A stretch of DNA of 25,673 nt from a virus. Positions within the stretch are counted from its first letter, which is position 1. Each line of letters opens with the position of its first letter. Below are positions 1,979-22,552 of the stretch, piece by piece. The notes below the pieces were generated by a model, which saw nothing but the letters and a program-made list of their open reading frames with translations, searched no databases and was not told the DNA's origin. The position numbers and the translations under genes are program-made. The stretch is taken from the IMG/VR virus record IMGVR_UViG_3300003322_000287, positions 1 to 25,673 of that record; one strand, given 5' to 3'.

Positions 1979-1996
1979 TAGCAATAATCGTGCCAA
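1979..1996 (-). promoter_or_regulatory. sigma-54 (RpoN) type -24/-12 promoter, site 1
   Basis: Read on the minus strand the site is TTTGGCACGATTATTGCTA. It matches the sigma-54 consensus TGGCACG-N4-TTGCW at every defined position, with GG (1994-1993) and GC (1982-1981) exactly 12 bp apart. The predicted start is near 1969, about 29 nt before the scaffold-like ATG. The -24 element lies in the 60-bp gap after the portal stop. The 17-bp core is identical to site 2 at 8737-8754. Confidence 0.75.
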
Positions 1997-2027
1997 ACTC
2001 TAAGGTTTCGCTAAAGTCGCTAGAGTT
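1996..2027. repeat. inverted repeat immediately upstream of sigma-54 site 1
   Basis: AACTCTA (1996-2002) is the exact reverse complement of TAGAGTT (2021-2027). The 18-nt spacer itself contains GCG/CGC half-repeats. The centre is about -42 relative to the predicted start near 1969. It overlaps the last codons of the portal gene, so part of the pattern may be constrained by coding. It could be an activator site or a hairpin ending the upstream transcript. Confidence 0.45.
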
Positions 2028-4165
2028 TTTATCTTAGAATCGTTCAATTTGACTTTACCGGTCAAGGCTGTCTTATCGAGATTACCCTTATTTTTGAGTT
2101 GTTGCAGACCCATCTGACCCTGGATATTCTGCTGCTGCATCGCCGCTTGGTCCTGAGATAACTTCTGTTGAAGTTGAGCATCACGCTCTTGTTCAGCCTG
2201 TTGCATTTGTGCTTCAAGCATCTTGCGAACTGTGACTTTACGTTGAAGTTTACGTAGTGCCTGGCGAATGTCTGGATCGAGTAGAATGTCGAGAGCGTCT
2301 GTTGCTTCGAGTTGCTGTGCCTGAACCATCATTACGATGAAGTTTTCGAATTTAGACCTGTCTTGGAGAAGAGGAGGTAAGCTTTCTACCACAACACCTA
2401 CTGATTCGAGATCGATATCGATATTGTCTCGTAAGAAATCCACACCCGCAGATCCGATAATCGGTGCAAAAACTTCTCTGTCGGCCATAGCAATCCTCAT
2501 CAGTTTAGCCTGCTGAGTCATCACGCGTGACCAAAATCTCTCAAAACCAGCAAAATATGGTTTGGTGGTCATCGTCGATTGGAAGATAGCGGCATCGGTC
2601 ACTCCAACCGCTTGCGAAGGAGCCTGAACAACACCCTGCCTTTCCGCAGAACTACCCAAGATAATATTCTCTTGTTGGTCAAGAAAGCTCATTATCTCGA
2701 TATATTCCCTGATACCTTGACTTATCGATAAATCGATTTCTTTGAGCACGTTCATACCACCTTGCATCATCTGGTACTCTTTGGTGTTGACCGCAACGAT
2801 ACCAGCGGTCTTCAAGAACGAGGCTACTTTATCTAGGTTCCAGCCCTCCGGCATGAGAGCCATGTCAAAGACAAACCCTTTAGATCCGGCCCTGTTCATG
2901 GCAAGCTGAAGGTTGTACATCGCCATATCTTTGAGAAGGTCGAGTGCAACAACTTGCTCCACCTTAGACACCGACTGACCACCCATGTAGTTCGGCACCC
3001 AGCATGTATAAGGTGGTAGCGTTTTTTCGAGAGTGTCGAGATCACGAGGTTGGTTAGGAAGTTCTCCCCATTCTCTGACAATCTCTCCTCCGATCATGGT
3101 GATGCCTCTCCAACACTCCATTTTAGAAGTCATGAGGTTGGCTTTCTTTGGTACCTTATCTTCGTCCTTGAGTTCTTGCAGGTGCTCTGTGCCGTACTTC
3201 TCTTTGATCTCACTCTTGTACTTGCGAACTTTGAAGTCTCGCCAGGTCGCCCTGAGCACCATCACACGAGGCACGTTGTCGATATTCCTGAACCAGCCTA
3301 ACGTGCTATTGTCTATACAATCGAAGAAGTTAGCACCATTACCGGCTTGATACAAGCCAGCGTTCATGTTGGTGTAAATGTTGTAGTTGTTCTGAGCCTT
3401 CTCTAATTCTTCGTTAGAAAGGTTGTAGCGTTCGGCTGCTTCGGCCAAACCCATATAATAGGCTTCCAGGAAATAGGTACTATCGGACAGTTCGTCGTCT
3501 GTGGAGTTGGGGTCCCACACAAAGCAGAGTGGCTCTACACGTACTGGTCGAGGAATTCCGCGAACGATCTCATTCCTAACAAAACAAGCGTTCTGTATCC
3601 ATACATCTTTAAACGTTGCGTTCCTGAGTCGATCAACATTATTGCGTTTCGCGAGATCCTTTAATCCCATTTCATAAATGATCTCTAACTTGTCTTTGTA
3701 TTTGAGATCAGCCCACTCGTCTAAAGACAAATCGGTCTGGGGAATGTTGGGATCTTGTAATGGTAAGCCTGATCGTTGCTCTGCGAACTGTGCTGCGTCT
3801 TGAAGTCTTCGTTGTACACGCAATGTTTCTTTTGCTTCATGCTTACGCGAGACTGCTTCTTTCGATAACGCTCTTACTCTTAACTCCCATCCTCGTGATT
3901 CGAGTTCACCAACTAAGTTCTCAATCTTGGATTTTAAATTTGAGATACTTACATACATGGCTGGTAAATCGGTGCCATCTTGTGCCTTCTGTATAAAGTT
4001 AGCCATATCACCAGTACTTCCCTGGTTGAAATACTTCACAGCCTCTTGCTTCACGCGATACTTCAGGGCATAGGTGTTGGTGAGACTATATTTAGCAAGA
4101 GCCTTGCCCCATGCGAGATGATACTCGCGGTCTTTGCGTTGTGTCGAAAGTGGTGGCAAATTCAT
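2000..4165 (-). CDS. portal protein
   Basis: At 721 aa this is close in length to P22-type portals (about 725 aa). The portal forms the dodecameric ring at the unique capsid vertex through which the terminase threads DNA. The N-terminal part (about residues 70-100, MYVSISNLKSKIENLVGELE) resembles the start of the portal core in P22/crAss-like phages. The long C-terminal region (about 640-700) is a Gln-rich coiled coil (EAQMQQAEQERDAQLQQKLS), typical of the portal barrel and tail. It sits between the terminase side and the scaffold gene, as expected. Its ATG shares an ATGA overlap with the end of the upstream GIY-YIG gene, so translation is probably coupled through that mobile gene. Confidence 0.85.
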   Translation of the reverse strand: MNLPPLSTQRKDREYHLAWGKALAKYSLTNTYALKYRVKQEAVKYFNQGSTGDMANFIQKAQDGTDLPAMYVSISNLKSKIENLVGELESRGWELRVRALSKEAVSRKHEAKETLRVQRRLQDAAQFAEQRSGLPLQDPNIPQTDLSLDEWADLKYKDKLEIIYEMGLKDLAKRNNVDRLRNATFKDVWIQNACFVRNEIVRGIPRPVRVEPLCFVWDPNSTDDELSDSTYFLEAYYMGLAEAAERYNLSNEELEKAQNNYNIYTNMNAGLYQAGNGANFFDCIDNSTLGWFRNIDNVPRVMVLRATWRDFKVRKYKSEIKEKYGTEHLQELKDEDKVPKKANLMTSKMECWRGITMIGGEIVREWGELPNQPRDLDTLEKTLPPYTCWVPNYMGGQSVSKVEQVVALDLLKDMAMYNLQLAMNRAGSKGFVFDMALMPEGWNLDKVASFLKTAGIVAVNTKEYQMMQGGMNVLKEIDLSISQGIREYIEIMSFLDQQENIILGSSAERQGVVQAPSQAVGVTDAAIFQSTMTTKPYFAGFERFWSRVMTQQAKLMRIAMADREVFAPIIGSAGVDFLRDNIDIDLESVGVVVESLPPLLQDRSKFENFIVMMVQAQQLEATDALDILLDPDIRQALRKLQRKVTVRKMLEAQMQQAEQERDAQLQQKLSQDQAAMQQQNIQGQMGLQQLKNKGNLDKTALTGKVKLNDSKIKTLATLAKP

Positions 4166-4980
4166 ATTTGTTCTCTGTTTAGTTTTTCGTAATCCTCCTT
4201 ATACATCCATTTAAAGCCCCCTGTGGTCAATCTTCTCTTACTTCCTCTGCATATTTCTGTTATATGTGCCCCTATTAATCCGAGAGTCGTGCTCGCTTCT
4301 TTGATAAAATTCCATTCTCTTACGTACACGCCGGTTTTATTTAATTGCACCACAGGTCTTGCATTTCCGTTGTTCATACCACGATTAGCGTTTCCAATTT
4401 TATCTCTGGTCTCTTGTTTTACAATTTTTCCTATATTGGCTAATCGTGTTTTCTCCACCGCCTCCCTGTTTTGTTTTCTACCTCTTAATGCTTGTGCTCT
4501 TTTCAAAATTGTTTCTGGTGATTGTTTCCGCCCTCTCTGTGCTTCGCTTATTTTACGACGAGTTTCCTCTGTTACTTCGTGTTTGGGAGGACCATCTCGT
4601 TCATATCTTTTCTTTGCTGACTCACTCATTTTCTTTCTTGATACCTCACCCATTTTACCGTGTGATCCACCACCTTCTCTAAGATTCATGAGTTTATAAC
4701 CCATCAATCGATAATGAGCCATATAGAAACACTCGGCGTAATCCAGATGTTCTTGTGTGTATGAATCTTCTTCGAATTGAAGAAGTATTTCTAGTTTGTG
4801 ATTATCAACACCATATTTATTGAGAGAACTAAATATGCCAGATTGACCTTTGGTGTGTAGTCCTTTATAATTTGCTACTCTTTGATACAGATTTACTGTT
4901 TGTCCAATGTAGACTTTGTTGGACGGGCTTGTAATTTTATAGATACAGATTATTGGTATTCCTTTGGTGATCGTTATCAT
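4162..4980 (-). CDS. GIY-YIG homing endonuclease with NUMOD-type DNA-binding repeats
   Basis: A GIY-YIG nuclease domain occupies about residues 8-95, with IYKI near the start and KVYIGQT about ten residues later. Basic NUMOD3-like repeats follow (about 115-200: RKKMSESAKKR, RRKISEAQRGRK). A C-terminal NUMOD1/IENR1-like unit (about 205-265) reads PVVQLNKTGVYVREWNFIKE ... TTGGFKWMYKED. Such enzymes cut intron- or gene-free alleles and spread by recombination. It stands alone between the terminase and portal genes, with no sign of an intron. A 64-bp gap separates it from the terminase stop, and its stop codon overlaps the portal start (ATGA, 4162-4165). It is related to the second copy at 17329-17979. 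Confidence 0.88.
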   Translation of the reverse strand: MITITKGIPIICIYKITSPSNKVYIGQTVNLYQRVANYKGLHTKGQSGIFSSLNKYGVDNHKLEILLQFEEDSYTQEHLDYAECFYMAHYRLMGYKLMNLREGGGSHGKMGEVSRKKMSESAKKRYERDGPPKHEVTEETRRKISEAQRGRKQSPETILKRAQALRGRKQNREAVEKTRLANIGKIVKQETRDKIGNANRGMNNGNARPVVQLNKTGVYVREWNFIKEASTTLGLIGAHITEICRGSKRRLTTGGFKWMYKEDYEKLNREQI

Positions 4981-5044: not shown

Positions 5045-6955
5045 TCATCTATTGAAAAGTGGATTTGTTGATTTGACAGTTGGACGAAGAGTAGAGCCGT
5101 TATTAATCAGTTCTATTCGCCCACCAACATTGCGGTACTGTGTTGTTGGATTCTTCGATGCTTCAGCATCATGATGACTAGCTACTCTATGATCGGCTTG
5201 AAGAAGCAAAAGACACCAACCAACAGCTACGGCCAAGTCATCGTCCGCGTGATCCATTCCGAACTTACCGCATTCTTCTATGAATCGTAGTGAAGGAATT
5301 AAATGAGGATAATTCTCCCAATAAGCGTCTAACAGACCTATCATCTGTTGTTTTCTGGCGGGGGTCATCTTCTCTCCAACTTCCATCTTAAATCCACCTT
5401 GTACTAATGTTGGTGACTTGGGAGCGAGAGATAGAAGTTTTGCGTATTCTTTGTTTTGATGGTTCTCGAAATAATCTTTAGCTCGATAGCCTCCACGATT
5501 CATTTCTATAAGCACCTGCGTGTTGTTATACCACTGAAGAAGCATCGCCAACTGTTCGTAATAATCACCTAATTTTTTCGGACGGTCTGTGTATTCGGCA
5601 ACTATTTTTGGTCCTTCTAAACCGAAGGGACGTGCCATTATTGCAGTGCTAAGATTTGAATTATCTCTTGACTTTGTGGCGTCATCGTCATCTGCCGGGT
5701 CGAAGCTCGCGCAGTACCCGTTTTTGATTAGTCGCGGTCTTTCATAAACAATTATCTTACCGTCAGGATCTGGTACGAAATCAGGAGAACCACCTATCTT
5801 AGGACGCATCCAACCCTTAACTTGAAGAGGGGGATTGTCTTGAAGTTCTTTATATCTATTCGAGCGAGTGATCGGATTGCCAACACCAACACCATTCACA
5901 ATCAGAAAAGCATCTTCTTCGGTGATAGGCCACTTCTGGCGGAATTTGTTGTATACGATAGAACTCATCCCCTCTTTGCGTCGGCGTTCATAGATGATAG
6001 ATCGAATACCTTCTTCAATCATATCGTTTCCAAAAGAATCTAGATGCATGCACGAGAATCCCCAAAGTGCGTATCTTCTCAATCCGTACAAATGCGCTTT
6101 TGTCCAGAACTCCATTAGCCCCTTTCCTGCTTTACCTGTCTCTCCCATCGTGCCGAATATGAAGGGGGTGCCGACACGAGATCCGTCGTTGTCCATCAAA
6201 CACTCTTCCGCATTAGACCACAGTGACATTAATTCTTCTTGCTCACCGGCTTCATCGATAACAAGTTTAGCGTAAGCATTACCCGCATGACCTGTTGGTG
6301 TTGGCGCAACAGAAATGATTGAAGACATATTACCTATGTGTTTCTTCTGTGATTCTACCCACCTACCAAACACCATCGCGTCGCGACGATCTATGTGAAC
6401 ATAAGCACGGAGAAAAGGAGACACGTTCCGGTGTATATACTTATGCTTAGAGAATAAATTCCTAGAGTCTGTTTCACTTTTGGAATTCATTCCTATTTCG
6501 TATTCTTTGTGAAATGTTGCATCGTATACATTGTCTGCTGAGAAATCCCAACTAGCTCCTATTTGACGACGCTTAATATTCACTAATCCTTCTCCTGGTG
6601 TATCCAATACTTCCTGCTTAACCCTTGCGAAATCCATTTGAGTCGCTCGAAAGTCAGGTCTGATTTTTCCTCTAGTTTTATGTCTTATCCAACAATGGTT
6701 GAAATAGAAATAATACCTTCCAGGCATGCCGTCATATCCTTCTCGACACCTACGTATTTCTTCCAATTCCCAATCTAACCGCGCCCTATGATCGTCCCCA
6801 AATTCGGGTATTTCGATGTGCGTGTATTTCTTATTAACCATGAACGGATTAGTCGCCATCACTCGCGCCGTTTCATACTGCACCTTTGCTTCGAGTTCTT
6901 CGATGTAATCGTTCTTCGAAATGATACTAAACTTGTCGTCCTTATCCTTAGACAT
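5045..6955 (-). CDS. terL: terminase large subunit
   Basis: This 636-aa protein is the DNA-packaging motor. The ATPase domain has a Walker A-like loop KRRQIGASW (128-136), a Walker B LVIDEAGE (231-238) and a coupling-motif candidate GTMGE (268-272). The nuclease domain shows ASFDPADDDD (416-425), VLIEMNRGGY (481-490) and MDHADDDLAVAVGW (567-580), which carry the acidic residues expected of the RNase H-like fold. The aromatic stretch RYYFYFNHCWIRH (80-92) recalls crAss-like terminases. The ATG overlaps the end of the DUF616 gene by 8 nt. No small-terminase gene was recognised nearby. Confidence 0.95.
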   Translation of the reverse strand: MSKDKDDKFSIISKNDYIEELEAKVQYETARVMATNPFMVNKKYTHIEIPEFGDDHRARLDWELEEIRRCREGYDGMPGRYYFYFNHCWIRHKTRGKIRPDFRATQMDFARVKQEVLDTPGEGLVNIKRRQIGASWDFSADNVYDATFHKEYEIGMNSKSETDSRNLFSKHKYIHRNVSPFLRAYVHIDRRDAMVFGRWVESQKKHIGNMSSIISVAPTPTGHAGNAYAKLVIDEAGEQEELMSLWSNAEECLMDNDGSRVGTPFIFGTMGETGKAGKGLMEFWTKAHLYGLRRYALWGFSCMHLDSFGNDMIEEGIRSIIYERRRKEGMSSIVYNKFRQKWPITEEDAFLIVNGVGVGNPITRSNRYKELQDNPPLQVKGWMRPKIGGSPDFVPDPDGKIIVYERPRLIKNGYCASFDPADDDDATKSRDNSNLSTAIMARPFGLEGPKIVAEYTDRPKKLGDYYEQLAMLLQWYNNTQVLIEMNRGGYRAKDYFENHQNKEYAKLLSLAPKSPTLVQGGFKMEVGEKMTPARKQQMIGLLDAYWENYPHLIPSLRFIEECGKFGMDHADDDLAVAVGWCLLLLQADHRVASHHDAEASKNPTTQYRNVGGRIELINNGSTLRPTVKSTNPLFNR

Positions 6956-7847
6956 TGATATACTCTATAAATTTTCCTCGATATATCTTCACCTGTTTCA
7001 ACATCTCGCTTGGTTCCGGTAGATAGTCACTTAGCCAACGCTGGTATAGCATCGACTCTCCCCTTACAATTAGATGTGGTGTGTAAGGATGTTTTTCAAT
7101 TTCAGTTACTGCATCGGGGAAACCTCTCCAATTAATCCAACTATCTTTTGGTGCAACTTTTACTTCTTCTTTTGTCGAACAATTGATGATTTTGGAAGTA
7201 GGGATTTTTCGCGGGTTGTGAAGACGAGGTCCAAAGAAACGTTCGACGTGACCGTGTGGTATCTCTGTGATTTTTGTGCTCGACCAGAACGCGGCGAAAG
7301 GTGCTGATATCTGATCTCTCCAACTACCTTTGTCTACTTCGTTCCACCAAATTTTGTCAAAGCTCTTGGTATCTCCCCTTCTAACAATTACTCCACATCG
7401 ATACAGTCCTCCCTCGATTGGATACTTCAACGCATGATACCTCTCAATCTGCTTGTTAACTACTTCTTTGCTATCTAACTTTTTATCGAGAACAATTCTT
7501 GCTTCTGCGTAAACACAGTTTCGTTGGGGATGAGCGGTCATGTAAACAGTGCCGCCTTCAGGAAGCCCCACTATAAACTCGTTTAAATCTCCCTCTATCT
7601 GGTACGTGCAGTCGATGTAGATATTAGTATCGTACTGTTTCGTATCATATCGTATTTTGTAATACCGACTGAGTTTTTTGGAATCAGTGGCTTTCGCGGG
7701 GTCCGGCTTTACTATTGTCCAAGCGCCAGGATTATCAATGATCTGATCGGTTATTGCGACGTAGGACCAGCCTTCTGTGATTATTTTTGGCTGTTTTAGT
7801 GTGTCGCCCTCACCAATCAGTACGGTAAAGCAGATATTTCTATTCAA
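6948..7847 (-). CDS. DUF616 (TOD1/MUCI70-type) glycosyltransferase-like protein
   Basis: This 299-aa protein matches the DUF616 layout. It has an N-terminal strand (NICFTVLIGEGD), WSYVAITD (27-34), WTIVKP, KLSRYYKI (58-65), YIDCTYQI (77-84) at the place of the usual YIDGN motif, and AHPQRNCVYAEA (105-116). DUF616 proteins are nucleotide-sugar glycosyltransferase-like, mostly of unknown acceptor. No ATG is available before residue 103, so the start is probably TTG (7847); an ATT at 7854-7856 is the alternative. It lies between two small late genes, after a terminator-like hairpin, and overlaps the terminase start, so it belongs to the head operon. A role in decorating virion or host glycans is inference. 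Confidence 0.7.
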   Translation of the reverse strand: MNRNICFTVLIGEGDTLKQPKIITEGWSYVAITDQIIDNPGAWTIVKPDPAKATDSKKLSRYYKIRYDTKQYDTNIYIDCTYQIEGDLNEFIVGLPEGGTVYMTAHPQRNCVYAEARIVLDKKLDSKEVVNKQIERYHALKYPIEGGLYRCGVIVRRGDTKSFDKIWWNEVDKGSWRDQISAPFAAFWSSTKITEIPHGHVERFFGPRLHNPRKIPTSKIINCSTKEEVKVAPKDSWINWRGFPDAVTEIEKHPYTPHLIVRGESMLYQRWLSDYLPEPSEMLKQVKIYRGKFIEYINV

Positions 7848-8201: not shown

Positions 8202-8429
8202 TTATGCTTCTTTGAATTCAACGTAGTATTCTTTACCGGCCTCGAACTGTTCGCTAGAGAATTGTCCGAGTTCTATCTTACCTGTCGGAGTTGCTGCGAA
8301 GAAACTCTTGTTTTCATCACTACCAGTCATTACAGGATTAAGAGATGCGGTATAGAGGAATCGTCCGGTACCGTCCCAATGTTTAGTTTTGGTGACAGAG
8401 GTACATTGAAATTTTGCGATTGTTGACAT
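8202..8429 (-). CDS. small hypothetical protein in head module
   Basis: The 75-aa product starts at an ATG (MSTIAKFQCTSVTK) and has aromatic/charged beta-type composition ending in EAGKEYYVEFKEA. It was not recognised. It is the first protein gene after the long structured leader that begins at the sigma-54-type site near 8740. It is followed closely by the 82-aa gene, so the two probably form a pair expressed strongly late. A minor capsid or decoration role is possible but unproven. Confidence 0.65.
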   Translation of the reverse strand: MSTIAKFQCTSVTKTKHWDGTGRFLYTASLNPVMTGSDENKSFFAATPTGKIELGQFSSEQFEAGKEYYVEFKEA

Positions 8430-8474: not shown

Positions 8475-8500
8475 AGACCCTACCCGGATTGATAGGGTCT
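8475..8500 (-). repeat. 8-bp perfect hairpin in late leader
   Basis: AGACCCTA (8475-8482) pairs perfectly with TAGGGTCT (8493-8500) over a 10-nt loop. It lies between the tRNA-like element and the 75-aa gene. No U-run follows on either strand, so a processing or mRNA-stabilising hairpin is more likely than a terminator. A weaker TAATC/GATTA pair lies just 5' of it on the transcribed strand. Confidence 0.5.
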
Positions 8501-8530: not shown

Positions 8531-8606
8531 GTCCCCGGGCTGGATTCGAACCAGCGTTCTAAAATTTATGAGACTTTCGAGATTGACCCCACTTCTCCAC
8601 CGCGCG
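8531..8606 (-). tRNA. tRNA-Met-like (CAT anticodon) with defective acceptor stem
   Basis: Read on the minus strand, a full cloverleaf body is visible. It has TG at positions 8-9, a D-stem GAGA/TCTC with an 11-nt loop containing GGGG, and an anticodon stem AAAGT/ATTTT around loop CTCATAA (anticodon CAT). A 5-nt variable region and a T-arm GCTGG-TTCGAAT-CCAGC complete it. The acceptor is wrong: CGCGCGG against CCGGGGA pairs only at four of seven positions. C1:A72 and A11:U24 are initiator-like features, but the A/U-rich anticodon stem is not. CCA is not encoded. It may be a decayed tRNA, a tRNA with edited ends, or a tRNA-like processing signal. It lies inside the leader downstream of sigma-54 site 2. 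Confidence 0.6.
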
Positions 8607-8613
8607 ATATAAG

Positions 8614-8655: not shown

Positions 8656-8736
8656 ATGTTTGTTACCGGCCTACCGGTGTTTCGAATGATTTGCCTAGTA
8701 GTTCAGGGCGACCAGTCTCTAAGAGACACTATTTTA

Positions 8737-8754
8737 CAGCAATAATCGTGCCAA
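8737..8754 (-). promoter_or_regulatory. sigma-54 (RpoN) type -24/-12 promoter, site 2
   Basis: Minus strand TTTGGCACGATTATTGCTG matches TGGCACG-N4-TTGCW, with GG at 8752-8751 and GC at 8740-8739, exactly 12 bp apart. The predicted start is near 8727, where the RNA would begin with the GTCTCTTAGAGAC hairpin. It directs transcription through the tRNA-like leader into the two small late genes and the head module. The core is identical to site 1. Confidence 0.8.
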
Positions 8755-8755
8755 A

Positions 8756-8771
8756 TGTTTCACGTGGAACC
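8756..8771. promoter_or_regulatory. parS-like palindrome upstream of sigma-54 site 2
   Basis: TGTTTCACGTGGAACC matches 14 of 16 bases of the canonical bacterial parS sequence (TGTTTCACGTGAAACA). The inner GTTTCACGTGGAAC is a near-perfect inverted repeat. Its centre is about -37 from the predicted start, 2 bp from the -24 element. It may bind the promoter's activator or repressor; binding by host ParB/Noc-type proteins is a second possibility. It lies just past the stop of the 40-aa gene and before AACCTTTTT, also seen upstream of site 3. Confidence 0.45.
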
Positions 8772-8774
8772 TTT

Positions 8775-8897
8775 TTAGATAAGTGTTAGTAGTTGCTTAA
8801 TCTTCTCCTCTATTCGATCTCTAATATCGGGTGAAAGTTCTTTACTGGCGGCTTCACTGAGGTAGAGAATTGCTTCGGTTATTTCTAGTGTTGTCAT
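8775..8897 (-). CDS. small hypothetical protein (40 aa)
   Basis: The protein begins MTTLEITEAILYLSEAASKE and ends EKIKQLLTLI, an acidic amphipathic helix pair. The ATG overlaps the TGA of the glycosyltransferase gene (ATGA, 8894-8897), the arrangement used throughout this phage, which is the main support that it is translated. The stop at 8775-8777 ends the operon just before the parS-like palindrome and the next promoter. The function is unknown. Confidence 0.6.
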   Translation of the reverse strand: MTTLEITEAILYLSEAASKELSPDIRDRIEEKIKQLLTLI

Positions 8898-11050
8898 GAT
8901 AAAATTCTATGATGTTTAAGTATGTTTTCGTAAAGTTCAGGATGGACATAGTCGAGTTCCCCCGTTAGAATCTTGTGTCTGCTATAGACTATGATGTTGT
9001 TGCAATACCAGATATCTATGTTTTTGTTGTTGGATATCTTTTCGCGGAGGAGGGTGGATGGATAGAAACCTCTCTTTTCAAACTTCTCAGCCCACCAGGA
9101 AGCCCATTTTTCATTGTAGTGGTGAAGTCCCCCCTGACCAGGACACGCTGCGCTGAAGAGAATTAAACCCCCTGCGTGGTTGCAAAGAGTATCTACTAAA
9201 GTATCAGCATATCGTTCTTCCAGGTGTTCGGCTACTTCGACATTTATAACCAAATCAAACAATTGATGAGCGGGAAATGGTTTTCTGAGATCGTGATCTA
9301 TATAATTTTGGATTAGGAGTTTTTCGCGGGGTACGCCAAAATCTACACCAACCTTAGTAATCGTGTCTGGTAACACACTAAGCCATGCTCCCGTGTTACA
9401 TCCAAAATCAATCACCGATTCGACGTCCGTCAGATCGATGTGTTTGAATATTTCCTCAGCAGATCTACGTGAGTCAATGTCTTCACGGTACTGATCTGAA
9501 TAATCATTGTTCTTGTTTTTCCACTCCCATTTACTAACATATTCCAACAACTCTTCCTTCGACATTGCTTTGACTTTATCGTATTCTCCGGGATTATAAA
9601 AAGGATTTCTTGTTGAAGAGTTGATACCTATGTAATGATCGAAGTGATAAAGGTTTCCTGGAATTCGCGCTATCCTGTAGCCAAGTTTTTTGAAACGTTC
9701 GTAACGTTCCTTATCTTCAGGTCCGTAACTAATGAAGTTCTCATTCTCACCACCACCTTCAAAGAACTTCTGCTTGTTGAAAAATATTGCACCACCCACT
9801 GATGGGTTCTCCGGTGTGTCTACACCTTTACCTATTTTACGGAAAGGAAACAAGTCGTAGAGAGGAAAGATGTTTTTACGAAAGACGCGAGGTATTCGAG
9901 CAAAGAGATGACCGTACGGATACACCATGTCTGCGCGATTCTTCCTGAGTGCCTCAACAGCTTGCCAGATTTGTGCTGGTGGTAGAGCGACATCTACGTC
10001 GTAGTTGCAGATGATAGGGGTGTCCGCGAGTTCCGCCATCTTGTTGAGCATCCTGGTCCGATGGAAATGCTCCATATTGAAATGAACGTAATGGCACCAC
10101 TGTTTAAAGTGCTCGAACTTCTTATCGTCTCCTCTTTCACCGAGAATGATGTTCGTGGTGAATGCTTTCTGTAAAAGGCAAATAGAGAGTTCGGTATTCT
10201 CCATTCGGTCTTTATTATCATACATTACCGGCAAAGTAAATGTAACGTCTTGTAAGTTACACTTTGCGTCATCCAACGACTCCCACCTCTTCAGGTAGAA
10301 ATTGTGGTCACCTTCTTTCGCAAGAAGTCTACCAGCGAATAGTTTTGTTGGACGAATAACACGAGTGCCTTCTTTCTCTCCCAAAAACGCCGACCAAAAA
10401 CCAAACGTAGAATTCGCCAGGATGAAGTTATCACACAGTGAGGCGAGACACATCGCCTCTATATCCGTTTCTGTTTCTGGAAAGAATGCGTTTGGAAGAC
10501 AACCGAAATGAAACCTGCAATATTCTAAGTCGTCACTGATGAAGACAAGATTATATCGCTCGTAATCAAATGTCTGAAGAGCGTTGATGTAATAAGATGG
10601 CGAGAGAATGTGATAACCACCGTTCTTAATGTAATCACCGCGTCGAACGAAGATTGCTATTGTCTGCTGATCAAAAAGTCTGATGTGTTTCTCTTCAACT
10701 CCTAATTTAAAGAGCGAATGAAACGATAGTAATTCCTTAATGTCTTTTTCGTTCGGCCAATATTCGCTATGCTGAAAGTATCCGTCAATATCTGTAATCG
10801 TTTCTTCGCTCCACCACTTAGCGTCCTGGTGAATATCATAATGTCGATACGACTTCTCCTTATAAATGTTGGTTGTTTTGACATTTCCTTTAGGAAACTC
10901 GTTTTTGAAGTATTTGTGATAAGGCCATTCAGCAGGTATCCACCAATCAACACCGTACGTGTTCGCCATTGAATAGAGAAAGGCAATACCGAAAAGATTG
11001 TTTCCTAACCGAGGACCGTTTGGATCTGCTAGTTTGCTAAATTGCAGCAT
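8894..11050 (-). CDS. three-domain GT11-like / GT-A glycosyltransferase / SAM methyltransferase
   Basis: This 718-aa protein reads as three enzymes in one chain. Residues about 1-265 resemble GT11 alpha-1,2-fucosyltransferases: RLGNNLFG (14-21), FVRRGDY (134-140), SDD (172-174) and NSTFGFWSAFLG (213-224). Residues about 268-505 resemble a GT-A/galactosyltransferase C-domain: NYDVDV (349-354) as the DxD motif, VGGAIFF (418-424) and SYGPEDKERY (441-450). Residues about 525-690 are a Rossmann methyltransferase: VIDFGCNTGAW (546-556), D570, and VEVAEHLEE (604-612). Together they could build a methyl-capped glycan on virion proteins or on a host surface polymer; the acceptor is unknown. It overlaps the 67-aa gene by 14 nt and the 40-aa gene by ATGA. 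It is last but one of a long operon, beside head genes. Confidence 0.8.
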   Translation of the reverse strand: MLQFSKLADPNGPRLGNNLFGIAFLYSMANTYGVDWWIPAEWPYHKYFKNEFPKGNVKTTNIYKEKSYRHYDIHQDAKWWSEETITDIDGYFQHSEYWPNEKDIKELLSFHSLFKLGVEEKHIRLFDQQTIAIFVRRGDYIKNGGYHILSPSYYINALQTFDYERYNLVFISDDLEYCRFHFGCLPNAFFPETETDIEAMCLASLCDNFILANSTFGFWSAFLGEKEGTRVIRPTKLFAGRLLAKEGDHNFYLKRWESLDDAKCNLQDVTFTLPVMYDNKDRMENTELSICLLQKAFTTNIILGERGDDKKFEHFKQWCHYVHFNMEHFHRTRMLNKMAELADTPIICNYDVDVALPPAQIWQAVEALRKNRADMVYPYGHLFARIPRVFRKNIFPLYDLFPFRKIGKGVDTPENPSVGGAIFFNKQKFFEGGGENENFISYGPEDKERYERFKKLGYRIARIPGNLYHFDHYIGINSSTRNPFYNPGEYDKVKAMSKEELLEYVSKWEWKNKNNDYSDQYREDIDSRRSAEEIFKHIDLTDVESVIDFGCNTGAWLSVLPDTITKVGVDFGVPREKLLIQNYIDHDLRKPFPAHQLFDLVINVEVAEHLEERYADTLVDTLCNHAGGLILFSAACPGQGGLHHYNEKWASWWAEKFEKRGFYPSTLLREKISNNKNIDIWYCNNIIVYSRHKILTGELDYVHPELYENILKHHRILS

Positions 11051-14976: not shown

Positions 14977-15433
14977 TTCGTATGTCTTTTGCTTGTTCGA
15001 TATTTGATGTTGCCAGATTCCAGTATCGTCGAGCCTCGTGAAACAATAGTGTCAGAGCCGAATTGGTCTCCAAGACATCTCGATAAGCGTCGAATGTCGC
15101 TGTTAATTTGAGATCAAATGCTTTGTGATGATGTTCGAGATCAATAAGAACAAGATTACCTTCGTTTGCTGTTGAAGACGATTTCTCACTCAGTCTTATG
15201 AATTCGGATAACATTTTGTGTTTTCCTTCTTGTGCTGAAAGAGCAGAACCAATCGCAGCGAGATTATTAGCAGACGATTTAACATCGAATATGTACCAAG
15301 AAAGCGCATAGTTCATCTCTTCAAGAAACGAGCACGATTGGACGGTTTCTGCGATTGTCGATATTTCACCAAGATCACCGAGTAGTATACAAACTTCTTC
15401 AAGTAAAAGCGATGGAGAAGATCCTTTTGTCAT
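14957..15433 (-). CDS. helical hypothetical protein in the lysis-like cluster
   Basis: The start at 15433 (MTKGSSPSLLLEEVCILL) is set by an ATGA overlap with the 50-aa membrane-protein gene; the frame is open further upstream, but that part is basic, shadow-like sequence. The 158-aa product is almost entirely helical, with several Ala/Leu/Ser-rich stretches, no signal peptide and no clear membrane segment. No family was recognised. Its 3' end overlaps the spanin-like ATG by 20 nt. Confidence 0.6.
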   Translation of the reverse strand: MTKGSSPSLLLEEVCILLGDLGEISTIAETVQSCSFLEEMNYALSWYIFDVKSSANNLAAIGSALSAQEGKHKMLSEFIRLSEKSSSTANEGNLVLIDLEHHHKAFDLKLTATFDAYRDVLETNSALTLLFHEARRYWNLATSNIEQAKDIRNGGSKV

Positions 15434-15582
15434 ACAGCGTGCCCGATTACAAGTCCCAGCAGGAATGCGATGCCTGCTATCAGCCATTGACGCACTCTGA
15501 GTATTCCGACCGTTTGATCGAAGTCGAGATTTCTCCTGCAAAACTCGTCGAGAATGACTTCTATTGTTTCAATCTTTTCCAT
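15430..15582 (-). CDS. small single-span membrane protein (50 aa), holin candidate
   Basis: Read by hand: MEKIETIEVILDEFCRRNLD, a short linker, then a membrane helix (about residues 32-48, WLIAGIAFLLGLVIGHAV) at the C-terminus. The ATG overlaps the end of the secreted-protein gene by 14 nt and the TGA forms ATGA with the next gene, so it fits the operon exactly. Among secreted and spanin-like neighbours a holin or antiholin role is possible, but one C-terminal span is minimal evidence. Confidence 0.6.
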   Translation of the reverse strand: MEKIETIEVILDEFCRRNLDFDQTVGILRVRQWLIAGIAFLLGLVIGHAV

Positions 15583-15982
15583 TGTTGTGTTTCTTGTTGC
15601 AGATGTTTGTGGTCGACAGTGTTAGACTATGAGTCGCGTGAGGTGAATTATTTCTCACTGGTGTAACGAAAACTATGAAACCATTCTTCTCTCTAATCGC
15701 CATCGTGGTATATATGTCGCCGTTCACTTGGTTGACTAACATGAATGAGTTCTTTGAAAACTCAGACAAGGCTAGTGTGTCTGTGTCGCTAACTATCCCG
15801 AATCGACCATCACCGACCATCATTAACACTCGTTGTTTACCGCAAGAATATTTACCATTTGTTGTGACGGGTGATCTCTCCACCCACAGGTCAAGCTTCG
15901 CCGCTTGAAGTTGGGCGAAGCTGACCATAGGCAGGAACGAGAGTAAACCAAACAGGACGCAGAGACACAATATTTTCTTCAT
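15569..15982 (-). CDS. secreted hypothetical protein (137 aa)
   Basis: A classical signal peptide is visible (MKKILCLCVLFGLLSFLPMV then SFAQ, with likely cleavage after FA/Q near residue 23). The mature part is beta-rich (WVERSPVTTNGKYSCGKQRV ... YTTMAIREKNGFIVFVTP). The tail is Ser/Thr/Asn/His-rich. No enzyme motif is visible, so it is not an obvious endolysin. It is the first gene after the 640-bp structured region, probably first in its transcript, and overlaps the 50-aa membrane-protein gene by 14 nt. Confidence 0.65.
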   Translation of the reverse strand: MKKILCLCVLFGLLSFLPMVSFAQLQAAKLDLWVERSPVTTNGKYSCGKQRVLMMVGDGRFGIVSDTDTLALSEFSKNSFMLVNQVNGDIYTTMAIREKNGFIVFVTPVRNNSPHATHSLTLSTTNICNKKHNNGKD

Positions 15983-16625: not shown

Positions 16626-17351
16626 CTAAGGTTGCAGAACGACTAGAGATTTTTGGAGGAATCTTCTATAAAGATTTACCGTGCAGAGCAGGTCATCTAA
16701 GCAATATTTCGATATTTTGTCAATTTCACCGCGATAAAAAGCATCGCTGACTTCAGAACCATTCATTGTTGTTTTTGATGAAGGAAGACCCATAGCAGCC
16801 GATACTGCTGCGAGAGAGTCTGGATAAAAAGAATTTCCTTGCCAAATCTTAGATAAATCGACGAAAGGCAATGTCCAGGGCTTGTCGTCGCCGGTATCCA
16901 GAATAGTTGGAATCGTGATATCATTTACTAGCATTCGTTTTGCAAGCAGCGGATCGTCGAAACCGACGATATTAAAACCAACTAGGCGAGCGTCTTTTCG
17001 AGCATTGGTAAATTTCGTCAAGTCATCCGCAAAGTTCTTGAGAATTGTTTTCTCATCACCTACGTAAGTCTTAGACAAGAGAGTTGTCTTACCTTCTGCG
17101 GTAGAAAGTCGTCCAGCAGAGATACACACGATTTTGGAAAAGGGTGCGTACAGTGCTGCTTTGTCCATATAGTACTCTTCAGGAGTCGTTTCCTTACCGG
17201 TCTTTTTGTTGATCTCGTTGAAGTTTCTGGATTTGTATATCCAGGCGTCTTTAAAATTCTGGGGAAGTGACGACCAGTCTTTCGACATGCGGACGCACTC
17301 TACATCATGAAAGAAAAGATCTGATTCCTTATACTGTCTTAGTTGTTTCAT
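16626..17351 (-). CDS. DEDDy 3'-5' exonuclease, PolB-exonuclease-like
   Basis: The best start is the ATG at 17349-17351 (MKQLRQYKES), giving 241 aa; the open frame further upstream only shadows the GIY-YIG gene. Exo I is FFHDVECV (13-20, D16/E18), Exo II is GFNIVGFDDP (125-134) and Exo III is YCLDDLL (216-222, Y216/D220), the layout of DnaQ-fold exonucleases related to the PolB proofreading domain (DNA_pol_B_exo2 type). No polymerase domain is attached. The protein probably trims DNA or RNA 3' ends in replication or repair. Its first 23 nt overlap the upstream homing-endonuclease gene, implying that insertion preserved this start. Confidence 0.8.
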   Translation of the reverse strand: MKQLRQYKESDLFFHDVECVRMSKDWSSLPQNFKDAWIYKSRNFNEINKKTGKETTPEEYYMDKAALYAPFSKIVCISAGRLSTAEGKTTLLSKTYVGDEKTILKNFADDLTKFTNARKDARLVGFNIVGFDDPLLAKRMLVNDITIPTILDTGDDKPWTLPFVDLSKIWQGNSFYPDSLAAVSAAMGLPSSKTTMNGSEVSDAFYRGEIDKISKYCLDDLLCTVNLYRRFLQKSLVVLQP

Positions 17352-17979
17352 ATTCGTTTTTATACATCCACTTAAAACCACAGGCTGATTTCTGACGACC
17401 TTTACAAACTTGTCGAATAGACGAAGCATGAACTGTGTTCAGTTCTCTGGCTGCCGCAGCCATCGATATATGTTCTTTGATGAATATATTATCGAGGGAT
17501 AACTGAACTATAGGAGTGGATTTAGAAGTTTTCAATCTTAGTTCTTCTATTTTTTCTGGATGACTCTTCCAGAAATTTCGAACGGATTTACTCGCTTTCT
17601 CTAAACTTTCAGGAGTTCTTCTTCTACCTCTTCTGACTTTGCTCATTTTGGTTTTGGTGCTTTCGGATAATTGATGACCTATCGGACCGATAGCGTTTGA
17701 GTAGATGTTGTACCCGAATCTGCGATCCCAACTTTTCAGTATATTCATCCAGTATTGTTCTTGCTCGATAAGATGCGAAACGGGACATCTATCAACAATA
17801 AAACATTCGAAATTGTTTTCATTGAATTCCTCTGCTAGAAACCTATTATCGTGGATTCCTTTTCTTAACTTGTAGAAATGTTCCGATAATCGTTTATTAC
17901 AGTTACGACTGCTACCGACATAAACTTTATTGTTGGAGATGTTGTGTAGAATGTATATACCCGAAATTCTTTCTTTCAT
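17329..17979 (-). CDS. GIY-YIG homing endonuclease with NUMOD repeats, second copy
   Basis: The start at 17979 (MKERISGIYILHN) is fixed by an ATGA overlap with the FEN-nuclease stop, giving 216 aa. The nuclease domain (about residues 5-95) shows GIYIL, KVYVGSS, the NKRLSEH arginine, EQEQYWM and GYNIYSNA, all in family order. A NUMOD3-like basic repeat (about 100-135) and a NUMOD1-like end (PIVQLSLDNIFIKE ... CGFKWMYKNEYE) follow. It splits an otherwise coupled nuclease operon and ends 23 nt inside the exonuclease gene. Its C-terminal GFKWMYK-E/D/N-YE block matches the copy at 4162-4980, so the two probably share an origin. Confidence 0.88.
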   Translation of the reverse strand: MKERISGIYILHNISNNKVYVGSSRNCNKRLSEHFYKLRKGIHDNRFLAEEFNENNFECFIVDRCPVSHLIEQEQYWMNILKSWDRRFGYNIYSNAIGPIGHQLSESTKTKMSKVRRGRRRTPESLEKASKSVRNFWKSHPEKIEELRLKTSKSTPIVQLSLDNIFIKEHISMAAAARELNTVHASSIRQVCKGRQKSACGFKWMYKNEYETTKTV

Positions 17980-18653
17980 TTTTCTAATAATTCTTTCGGT
18001 ACATCTCTGCGGAGCCACAACAAATCATACACTTCGTCAAACGCTTCCTGTCCTTTCCAACCGTATTGATTCGTATATAATTCAAGTACTTTGTCTTTCA
18101 TCGCTTCTACATCAAGGCCTTCAAGAATCTTCGGCGCTTTCGCTTTGCCAATCCTGTTGATTCCCGGAACGTTGTCACTCGAATCACCTATCAACATCTG
18201 ACAGTAGAAGTTAAACCAAGCTGTCTCTTCGTCTTGCTCTACAATCGTATTGTGATACGTGTTGTAGATATGACCCGGAAGTTGAAGCATATCCTTGTCA
18301 AAACTTACAACCACCGACTGACCAGGTACGTGTAACGTGGCAAGGCAGTCATCTGCTTCGTAGCCATCGATAACAATCGCACCTTTAAAGTCGACCATGT
18401 ATTGTCGGAGATCTTCGAAATATTTTGGTTTGAACGAAGGTCTGTTTCCTTTGTATGGTTTGATAGTCGCTCGCTCATACCTGAAGTTGCCTTTACCTGT
18501 TAAAAATATTTTCGATTTGTTTTCGAACAGTTCTTCGATACGTGATACGAACTCATCAATGTCGGCTACACAGTCTGTCCATGCAATGTTTTCTTTTGTC
18601 GTGAGTGCTCGCCAGACCTGAAGGTCACCGTCGATGAGTGGAACTAAGTTCAC
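17976..18653 (-). CDS. FEN/PIN-type 5'-3' nuclease (T4 RNase H/5'-exonuclease-like)
   Basis: The 225-aa protein carries the metal-binding set of the 5'-nuclease family: LIDGD (6-10), YEADDCLA (98-105), SFDKDMLQLPG (117-127) and MLIGDSSDN (153-161). The helix-3-turn-helix element NVPGINRIGKAKAPKIL follows (161-177). YKGNR (67-71) matches the helical-arch region. Such enzymes remove RNA primers or flaps during replication. The start is GTG at 18651-18653, overlapping the RNA-ligase stop as GTGA. It is coupled to the ligase upstream and the homing endonuclease downstream. Confidence 0.88.
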   Translation of the reverse strand: MNLVPLIDGDLQVWRALTTKENIAWTDCVADIDEFVSRIEELFENKSKIFLTGKGNFRYERATIKPYKGNRPSFKPKYFEDLRQYMVDFKGAIVIDGYEADDCLATLHVPGQSVVVSFDKDMLQLPGHIYNTYHNTIVEQDEETAWFNFYCQMLIGDSSDNVPGINRIGKAKAPKILEGLDVEAMKDKVLELYTNQYGWKGQEAFDEVYDLLWLRRDVPKELLEK

Positions 18654-22411: not shown

Positions 22412-22525
22412 GGGATATAAAAAGGGAAAGCCCCCGAAGATTCCTGATATTCGCCGCTTAGCAGAGTACCTGAGACAATCAACGGGGGCAATGTTTTTAA
22501 GTCAAGTACTACTTCTCGCTAAGCA
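22412..22525 (-). promoter_or_regulatory. structured 5' leader of the SLOG gene (attenuator-like)
   Basis: The predicted RNA starts near 22525. Its first bases, GCTTAGC (22524-22518), are the exact complement of GCTAAGC (22462-22456). That second strand lies inside the loop of a 7-bp GC stem, GCCCCCG (22489-22483) with CGGGGGC (22436-22430). The GC stem is followed by TTTCCCTTTTTAT, like an intrinsic terminator, 19 nt before the ATG. The two pairings could form a pseudoknot or compete, as in a riboswitch or attenuator. No known riboswitch class was recognised. Confidence 0.5.
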
Positions 22526-22534
22526 CCCTTATTA

Positions 22535-22552
22535 CAGCAAAAACCATGCCAA
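22535..22552 (-). promoter_or_regulatory. sigma-54 (RpoN) type -24/-12 promoter, site 3
   Basis: Minus strand TTGGCATGGTTTTTGCTG has GG at 22550-22549 and GC at 22538-22537, 12 bp apart. It differs from the consensus TGGCACG-N4-TTGCW at one position (TGGCATG). The T-rich spacer resembles strong sigma-54 sites. The predicted start is near 22525, upstream of the SLOG gene. Confidence 0.65.

Follow-up and report, generated by a model that had tools for sequence, protein, structure and literature searches.

Transcription of late genes in phages relies, as a rule, on host sigma-70 together with phage factors, on a sigma factor of the phage or on a polymerase of its own. The sigma-54 consensus is printed as TGGCAC N5-7 TTGCT in PMC12316311, which also gives grpE and groES as sigma-54-dependent in Bacteroides thetaiotaomicron, and grpE likewise in Flavobacterium psychrophilum, and lists IbpA in a chaperone cluster enriched in Bacteroidota; for the Crassvirales, PMC8375218 has middle and late genes likely depending on host RNA polymerase. 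The DNA analysed here, a viral stretch of 25,673 bases (hereafter the window), may be compared with the Crassvirales (crAss001, phi14:2), its portal being 21-25% and its terminase 23-29% identical to crAss-like records; the terminase is also 25% identical to that of Elemovirus. A scan of nearly all of phi14:2, half each of crAss001 and cr131_1, and two thirds of the Flavobacterium phage elemoE located no intergenic -24/-12 site, and in these stretches, 239,744 bases in total, the core of the element had two matches, neither of them intergenic before an ORF.

The window itself carries such elements, and by the sequence comparisons described below two of them form a conserved -24/-12 promoter pair that serves the head module in a family of phages and is most likely read by host sigma-54. 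Promoters of this type are already known. Full-text literature searches, with subscription journals mostly outside their coverage, gave among the matches listed none whose title or start of abstract described a family of phages that uses sigma-54 promoters for its head or late genes.

Sequence and setting of the -24/-12 sites

The core of the element under study (site 2), TGGCACGATTATTGCT, occupies positions 8738-8753 on the minus strand (read 8753 to 8738), with the GG of the -24 box at 8752-8751 and the GC of the -12 box at 8740-8739, and is a full match to the sigma-54 consensus. Counting from the C at -12 (8739), transcription would be expected to start at 8727, in agreement with the start near 8727 put forward in a first-pass annotation of this DNA. 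Its twin (site 1; 1980-1995, minus strand, expected start 1969) lies in the gap between the portal gene (2000-4165) and a scaffold-like gene (783-1940). The same annotation had held the cores of these two sites to be alike, and they are indeed identical over 18 nt, AGCAATAATCGTGCCAAA on the plus strand (8738-8755 and 1980-1997); its placing of site 2 at 8737-8754 picked out a real site but was one base off. Also as proposed there, the identical promoters stand on the same strand 6.8 kb apart, the distance being 6758 bp start-to-start. The third site is TGGCATGGTTTTTGCT (22536-22551, minus strand), with an expected start at 22525.

Such sites are rare. The strict pattern TGGCAYGNNNNTTGCW (TGGCAYG-N4-TTGCW) occurs three times in the window, always on the minus strand, against a mean of 0.0025 in 400 window-sized first-order Markov sequences. 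Loose matching, allowing up to three mismatches, is not above chance in the window (77 found vs 80 expected), so that weight is placed only on the strict sites. The best sites score 19.6, a value to which one of 40 simulations came close (19.5), and it is the presence of several high-scoring sites in one 25.7-kb window that is unusual.

Read along the minus strand, the region of site 2 runs from a 40-aa ORF (8897-8775) through the block AAAAGGTTCCACGTGAAACATTTGGCACGATTATTGCTGTAAAATAGT, a tRNA-Met (8607-8531) and a hairpin (8500-8475) to an ATG at 8429, the gap being bounded by a glycosyltransferase/methyltransferase gene (8894-11050) and a small ORF (8202-8429, minus strand). The latter, of 75 aa, is the first conserved protein gene after site 2 and is 87% identical in the close relative G001 (see below). 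Behind site 2 lie the tRNA-Met, small ORFs, a glycosyltransferase-like gene (6948-7847, minus strand), the gene for the terminase large subunit (5045-6955, minus strand; phrog_6681, 4e-35) and the portal gene (minus strand; phrog_6547, 8.8e-65). The glycosyltransferase-like gene had been annotated as DUF616; the family is right, i.e. Pfam PF04765, which we take to have formerly borne that name, but it is now called TOD1_MUCI70. Behind site 1, the scaffold-like gene (385 aa, minus strand) had no family match and is 73-74% conserved in G001, its putative role being suggested by its place between the portal gene and the capsid gene that follows it; the capsid gene is assigned to phrog_13704 in G001, and the G001 capsid protein had no match in the phage collection.

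Upstream of the site 2 gap, the 718-aa ORF at 8894-11050 (minus strand) combines Glyco_transf_11, Glyco_transf_7C and Methyltransf_23 domains and is 78% conserved in G001. Two further minus-strand ORFs, 4162-4980 (between terminase and portal in the window) and 17329-18018, are related to each other and are likely to be mobile homing endonucleases; the G001 counterpart of the first lies behind site 2 and matches group I intron endonucleases.

Conservation of place and spacing in relatives

The closest relatives, the IMG/VR contigs G001 (71,232 bases) and G002 (25,399 bases), show no differences where they were aligned and were accordingly counted as one lineage; between the window and G001 the portal is 89% and the terminase 60% identical. 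G001 holds exactly three TGGCAYGNNNNTTGCW sites, on one strand and in orthologous places, with 16-mers identical to those of the window (the counterpart of site 2 at 53353-53368 and that of site 3 at 66624-66639, each 16/16 identical), and G002 has the first two of the three. In gap 2, which is 54% identical overall between the window and G001, the longest identical run, TTTGGCACGATTATTGCTGTA (21 nt), falls at the promoter, and the only 30-nt segments at least 80% identical cover the promoter and the upstream AAAAGGTTCCACGTG; in gap 3 (53% identity) the longest identical run, TTGGCATGGTTTTTGCTGTAAT (22 nt), is again at the promoter. Gap 1 is 86% identical overall and conserved throughout the portal-coding side, which makes the comparison less informative for site 1. 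In G001 a 43-aa ORF begins 18 nt past the site 2 core, and two weaker sites are present, TTGCACGATATTTGCT at 28 nt before an endolysin gene and TGGCACGATATTTGTA at 40 nt before an HNH gene, the latter with a score within the range of simulated sequences.

More distant relatives (L099, L122, L123, L124, L125 and L126) were found by searches with aligned terminases and portals. The core TGGCAY-N5-TTG is present in the portal/scaffold gap of all seven lineages whose records cover that gap (the window, G001, L122, L123, L124, L125 and L126), and it was present in at most 0.1% of shuffles of these gaps (2000 per gap). A site before the small-gene/terminase block is found in six of eight (the window, G001, L122, L123, L124 and L125); L126 has no site before its terminase, and L099 has a degenerate form only, TGGAACGATAATTGTA. 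L123 and L124 carry an additional site before the portal, and L100, a more distant relative, had no core match. The -24/-12 reading made in the first-pass annotation survives this comparison: G001 keeps the sites letter for letter, and the portal/scaffold site is present throughout.

Of all the observations, the spacing of the two boxes speaks most strongly for a -24/-12 architecture. In the eight family records (198,126 bases) the core with its 5-nt spacer occurs 24 times, against 2 occurrences for the reversed and 2 for the scrambled motif, and spacers of 3, 4, 6 and 7 nt in the same records gave 2, 0, 2 and 3 matches, respectively. Eighteen of the 24 cores are not within a long ORF and have an ORF start 8-110 nt downstream. 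A chance match to the consensus, or a repeat without promoter function, would sit well with the chance-level loose matches and with the one simulated window at 19.5, but the conservation in seven lineages already contradicts this reading, which is opposed also by the strict sites, the fixed spacing, the orthologous positions and the shared orientation; we consider it very improbable. Bacteroidetes sigma-A promoters (TTTG/TAnnTTTG) were likewise rejected as an explanation of the sites, the conserved boxes being elsewhere. The strict sigma-A pattern is absent from the gaps scanned (41 of G001 and 18 of the window), and loose matches number a few in G001, one of them overlapping site 3, and none in the window.

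The window sites and all orthologous portal/scaffold sites have the GG of the -24 box (TGGCAC), and those of the window and G001 also have the GC of the -12 box (TTGCW). Loss of the GG/GC pairs in related phages had been named beforehand as refuting a sigma-54 site, and the outcome is mixed: GG is kept, but GC gives way to GT or GA in the more distant relatives. The portal/scaffold sites of the window and G001 carry C at -12, those of L122, L124, L125 and L126 carry T, and that of L123 carries A, as do the two further intergenic sites of this relative. The base thus differs between phages and is nearly uniform within each (C, T or A), as though each phage were adapted to the sigma-54 of its own host; the weaker HNH site of G001, with T, is the exception. 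We do not take the loss of GC in the distant relatives as refuting the sigma-54 reading, a position supported by bacterial genomes, because Bacteroidota chromosomes use the same GC and GT variants before Hsp20 and other genes.

Across viral contigs the exact 18-mer was found in 17 stretches, against 5 for the reversed control. The large phage contigs G006 (148 kb), G016 (208 kb) and G015 (303 kb), represented by loci L074-L077, each have 4-6 same-strand copies of TTGGCAYGATTRTTGCW, many of them 33-40 nt before an ORF. These contigs differ from the family in that the copies precede small genes whose function is mostly not assigned, with a sigma-70-family gene nearby and a weak SAM-lyase match, and no head module.

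Bacterial counterparts and the probable polymerase at the sites

The same promoter class is found on Bacteroidota chromosomes. By hand tally, TTGGCAYGNTNTTTGYW occurs 41 times in 247 Bacteroidota genomes against 12 times for the reversed control, 18 of the 41 sites carrying GC and 23 GT; Taibaiella lutea accounts for 12 (six GC and six GT), with zero control matches. An ORF starts within 130 nt downstream in 20 of the 30 Bacteroidota loci shown (hand tally), and five of ten downstream proteins tested were HSP20, of which three follow a GC site and two a GT site. When NTA is appended, the exact 18-mer has nine matches in the bacterial genome collection, spread over five phyla by record title; in six an ORF starts within 60 nt, and one match precedes RsfS. 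The phage sites share their boxes, spacing and position before genes with the RpoN promoters of Bacteroidota chaperone genes, in which GC and GT variants both stand before Hsp20, but unlike bacterial sigma-54 promoters they would start phage head genes and occur as a pair. Among loci L128-L156, GC or GT TTGGCAYGNTNTTTGYW sites stand before HSP20 genes (five of the ten proteins tested), which suggests that sigma-54 promoters of Bacteroidota tolerate variation in the -12 base.

RpoN is encoded in 118 of 118 Bacteroidota genomes; the type of the G001 ECF sigma factor and the distant relatives suggest that the phage host is a Bacteroidota bacterium. The form TTGGCAYGNNNNTTGCWNTA is present in 3 of 98 Taibaiella-family genomes, so that some possible hosts have few promoters of this class, and a stricter pattern had no match in 148 genomes of the phylum, being too strict to inform.

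We consider it highly probable that site 2 is a -24/-12 promoter read by host sigma-54 RNA polymerase and that, with site 1, it starts the two units of the head module. The unit of site 2 would comprise the tRNA-Met, small genes, glycosyltransferase, terminase and portal, and that of site 1 the scaffold and capsid. Sigma-54 polymerase would bind and wait until an AAA+ activator opened the DNA, and the head genes, which are presumably late, would not be expressed before an activator, from the host or an unrecognised one from the phage, was switched on during infection. Because sigma-54 requires an ATP-driven activator, the phage would gain strict on/off control linked to a signal of the host, and the conserved promoters suggest that particle assembly in these phages is timed through an unusual, stress-linked transcription system taken over from the host. 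A more tentative extension, towards which we are nearly evenly disposed, is that an uncultivated phage family times its head genes by host sigma-54 through the promoter class of Bacteroidota Hsp20 and chaperones, such that assembly is enhancer-dependent and fires with the protein-folding stress response of the host.

An alternative is that the element is the late promoter of the phage's own sigma factor, of ECF type in G001, and resembles a sigma-54 site by chance. G001 does encode an ECF sigma factor (15106-15603, plus strand; TIGR02985, Bacteroidetes type, 3.9e-10), sigma-70-family proteins are found also in G006, G015 and G016, the carriers of motif clusters, and the uniformity of the -12 base within each phage, the G001 HNH site excepted, looks as if a trans-acting factor had co-evolved with the sites. 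Large phages often carry sigma factors, however, and the co-occurrence of motif and sigma factor is therefore weak evidence. Moreover, two boxes held strictly 5 nt apart are too close for -35/-10 boxes; the second box that a sigma-70-type factor needs 16-18 nt after TGGCAC is not conserved in the aligned sites, where only A/T-richness is seen by eye; and the same element stands before bacterial Hsp20 and RsfS genes. We regard this alternative as improbable, and continue with reading by host sigma-54. The ECF sigma gene of G001 lies on the plus strand directly before the DNA polymerase gene.

The sigma-54 activator domain PF00158 was not found in G000-G002, records that are perhaps incomplete, and Pfam searches with ten G001 proteins, which found the ECF sigma factor, revealed no AAA+ activator; on these two negatives a phage-encoded activator was set aside. 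PF00158 matches in G006, G015 and G016 fall in long AAA+ ORFs. No upstream activator site was identified near site 2, the nearest upstream box being a CACGTG palindrome at about -37; activator sites usually lie farther upstream than this. That box belongs to a palindromic, parS-like element, AAAAGGTTCCACGTGAAACA (8756-8775, minus strand), just upstream of site 2 at about -48 to -29, a putative operator. Its 8756-8771 palindrome agrees at 15 of 16 positions with what we take to be the parS consensus, of which the window has one match, and its core AAAAGGTTCCACGTG is conserved in G001, where a single additional A follows. In viral contigs such a palindrome near a -24/-12 site was found in two stretches, both the same relatives, and in no other contig. 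Given this absence elsewhere and the additional A, parS as a plasmid-partition site was rejected and only a possible operator retained.

Leader and putative short RNAs behind the sites

What the first-pass annotation called a long non-coding leader behind site 2 contains a tRNA-Met (CAT; 8531-8607, minus strand), with a tRNA-Met at the same place in G001, and a 10-bp RNA hairpin, AGACCCUAUC/GGUAGGGUCU (8475-8500, minus strand; -18.3 kcal/mol, z -3.15), between the tRNA and the first head-module ORF. G001 has a 10-bp hairpin at the equivalent position. Counted on a MAFFT alignment the hairpin pairs poorly (80% of cells) because the loops differ in length, whereas each sequence alone folds to 10 bp; it is a possible terminator or processing site. 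As a separate observation, the acceptor stem of the window tRNA-Met does not close as in G001, its 3' strand having four extra bases (by eye), and the window tRNA folds no better than shuffles (z 0.89) as against z -3.24 in G001. The G001 acceptor has a C1-A72 mismatch, a feature of initiator tRNAs.

These features allow a reading in which site 2 is real but mainly gives a short tRNA-Met transcript ending at the hairpin, the head genes being reached by read-through or transcribed from elsewhere. The hairpin between tRNA and first ORF is strong in both lineages, and a putative short, terminator-bearing RNA lies behind site 3 as well. The U-run after the hairpin at 8500-8475 is weak, however; a scan from the hairpin to the ATG detected no sigma-A-like promoter, and at the equivalent sites of L122, L124 and L125 ARAGORN detected no tRNA and an ORF starts 23-72 nt downstream. 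We hold this reading to be unlikely, albeit the least so of the alternatives, and favour a site 2 promoter whose transcription probably passes the hairpin into the head module.

The first-pass annotation had further argued for coordinated control of a head regulon. The idea of coordinated control is supported in that both sites are kept, at the start of the small-gene/terminase block and in the portal/scaffold gap, but the term is too narrow: site 2 covers a tRNA too, site 3 precedes a putative short structured RNA, and the weaker G001 sites precede the endolysin and HNH genes.

The putative RNA of site 3 (about 100 nt; 22417-22525, minus strand) has in both the window and G001 a GC-rich terminator stem (GCCCCCG/CGGGGGC) with a U-run, ending just before the next ATG, and a 9-bp helix that links the 5' end with the terminator loop as a pseudoknot. 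The pseudoknot was first found by eye and its pairs then counted, 16 of 16 being kept in the two sequences (window and G001), three of them changed on both sides. The shuffle control is weak on two sequences (72/500) and the slid controls are clear; by minimum free energy the fold is not significant in the window (z -1.0) and significant in G001 (z -2.6). The RNA has no Rfam match. The gene behind site 3 differs between the lineages, being weakly YpsA-like in the window and weakly HNH-like in G001, so that the RNA itself is probably the product of site 3.
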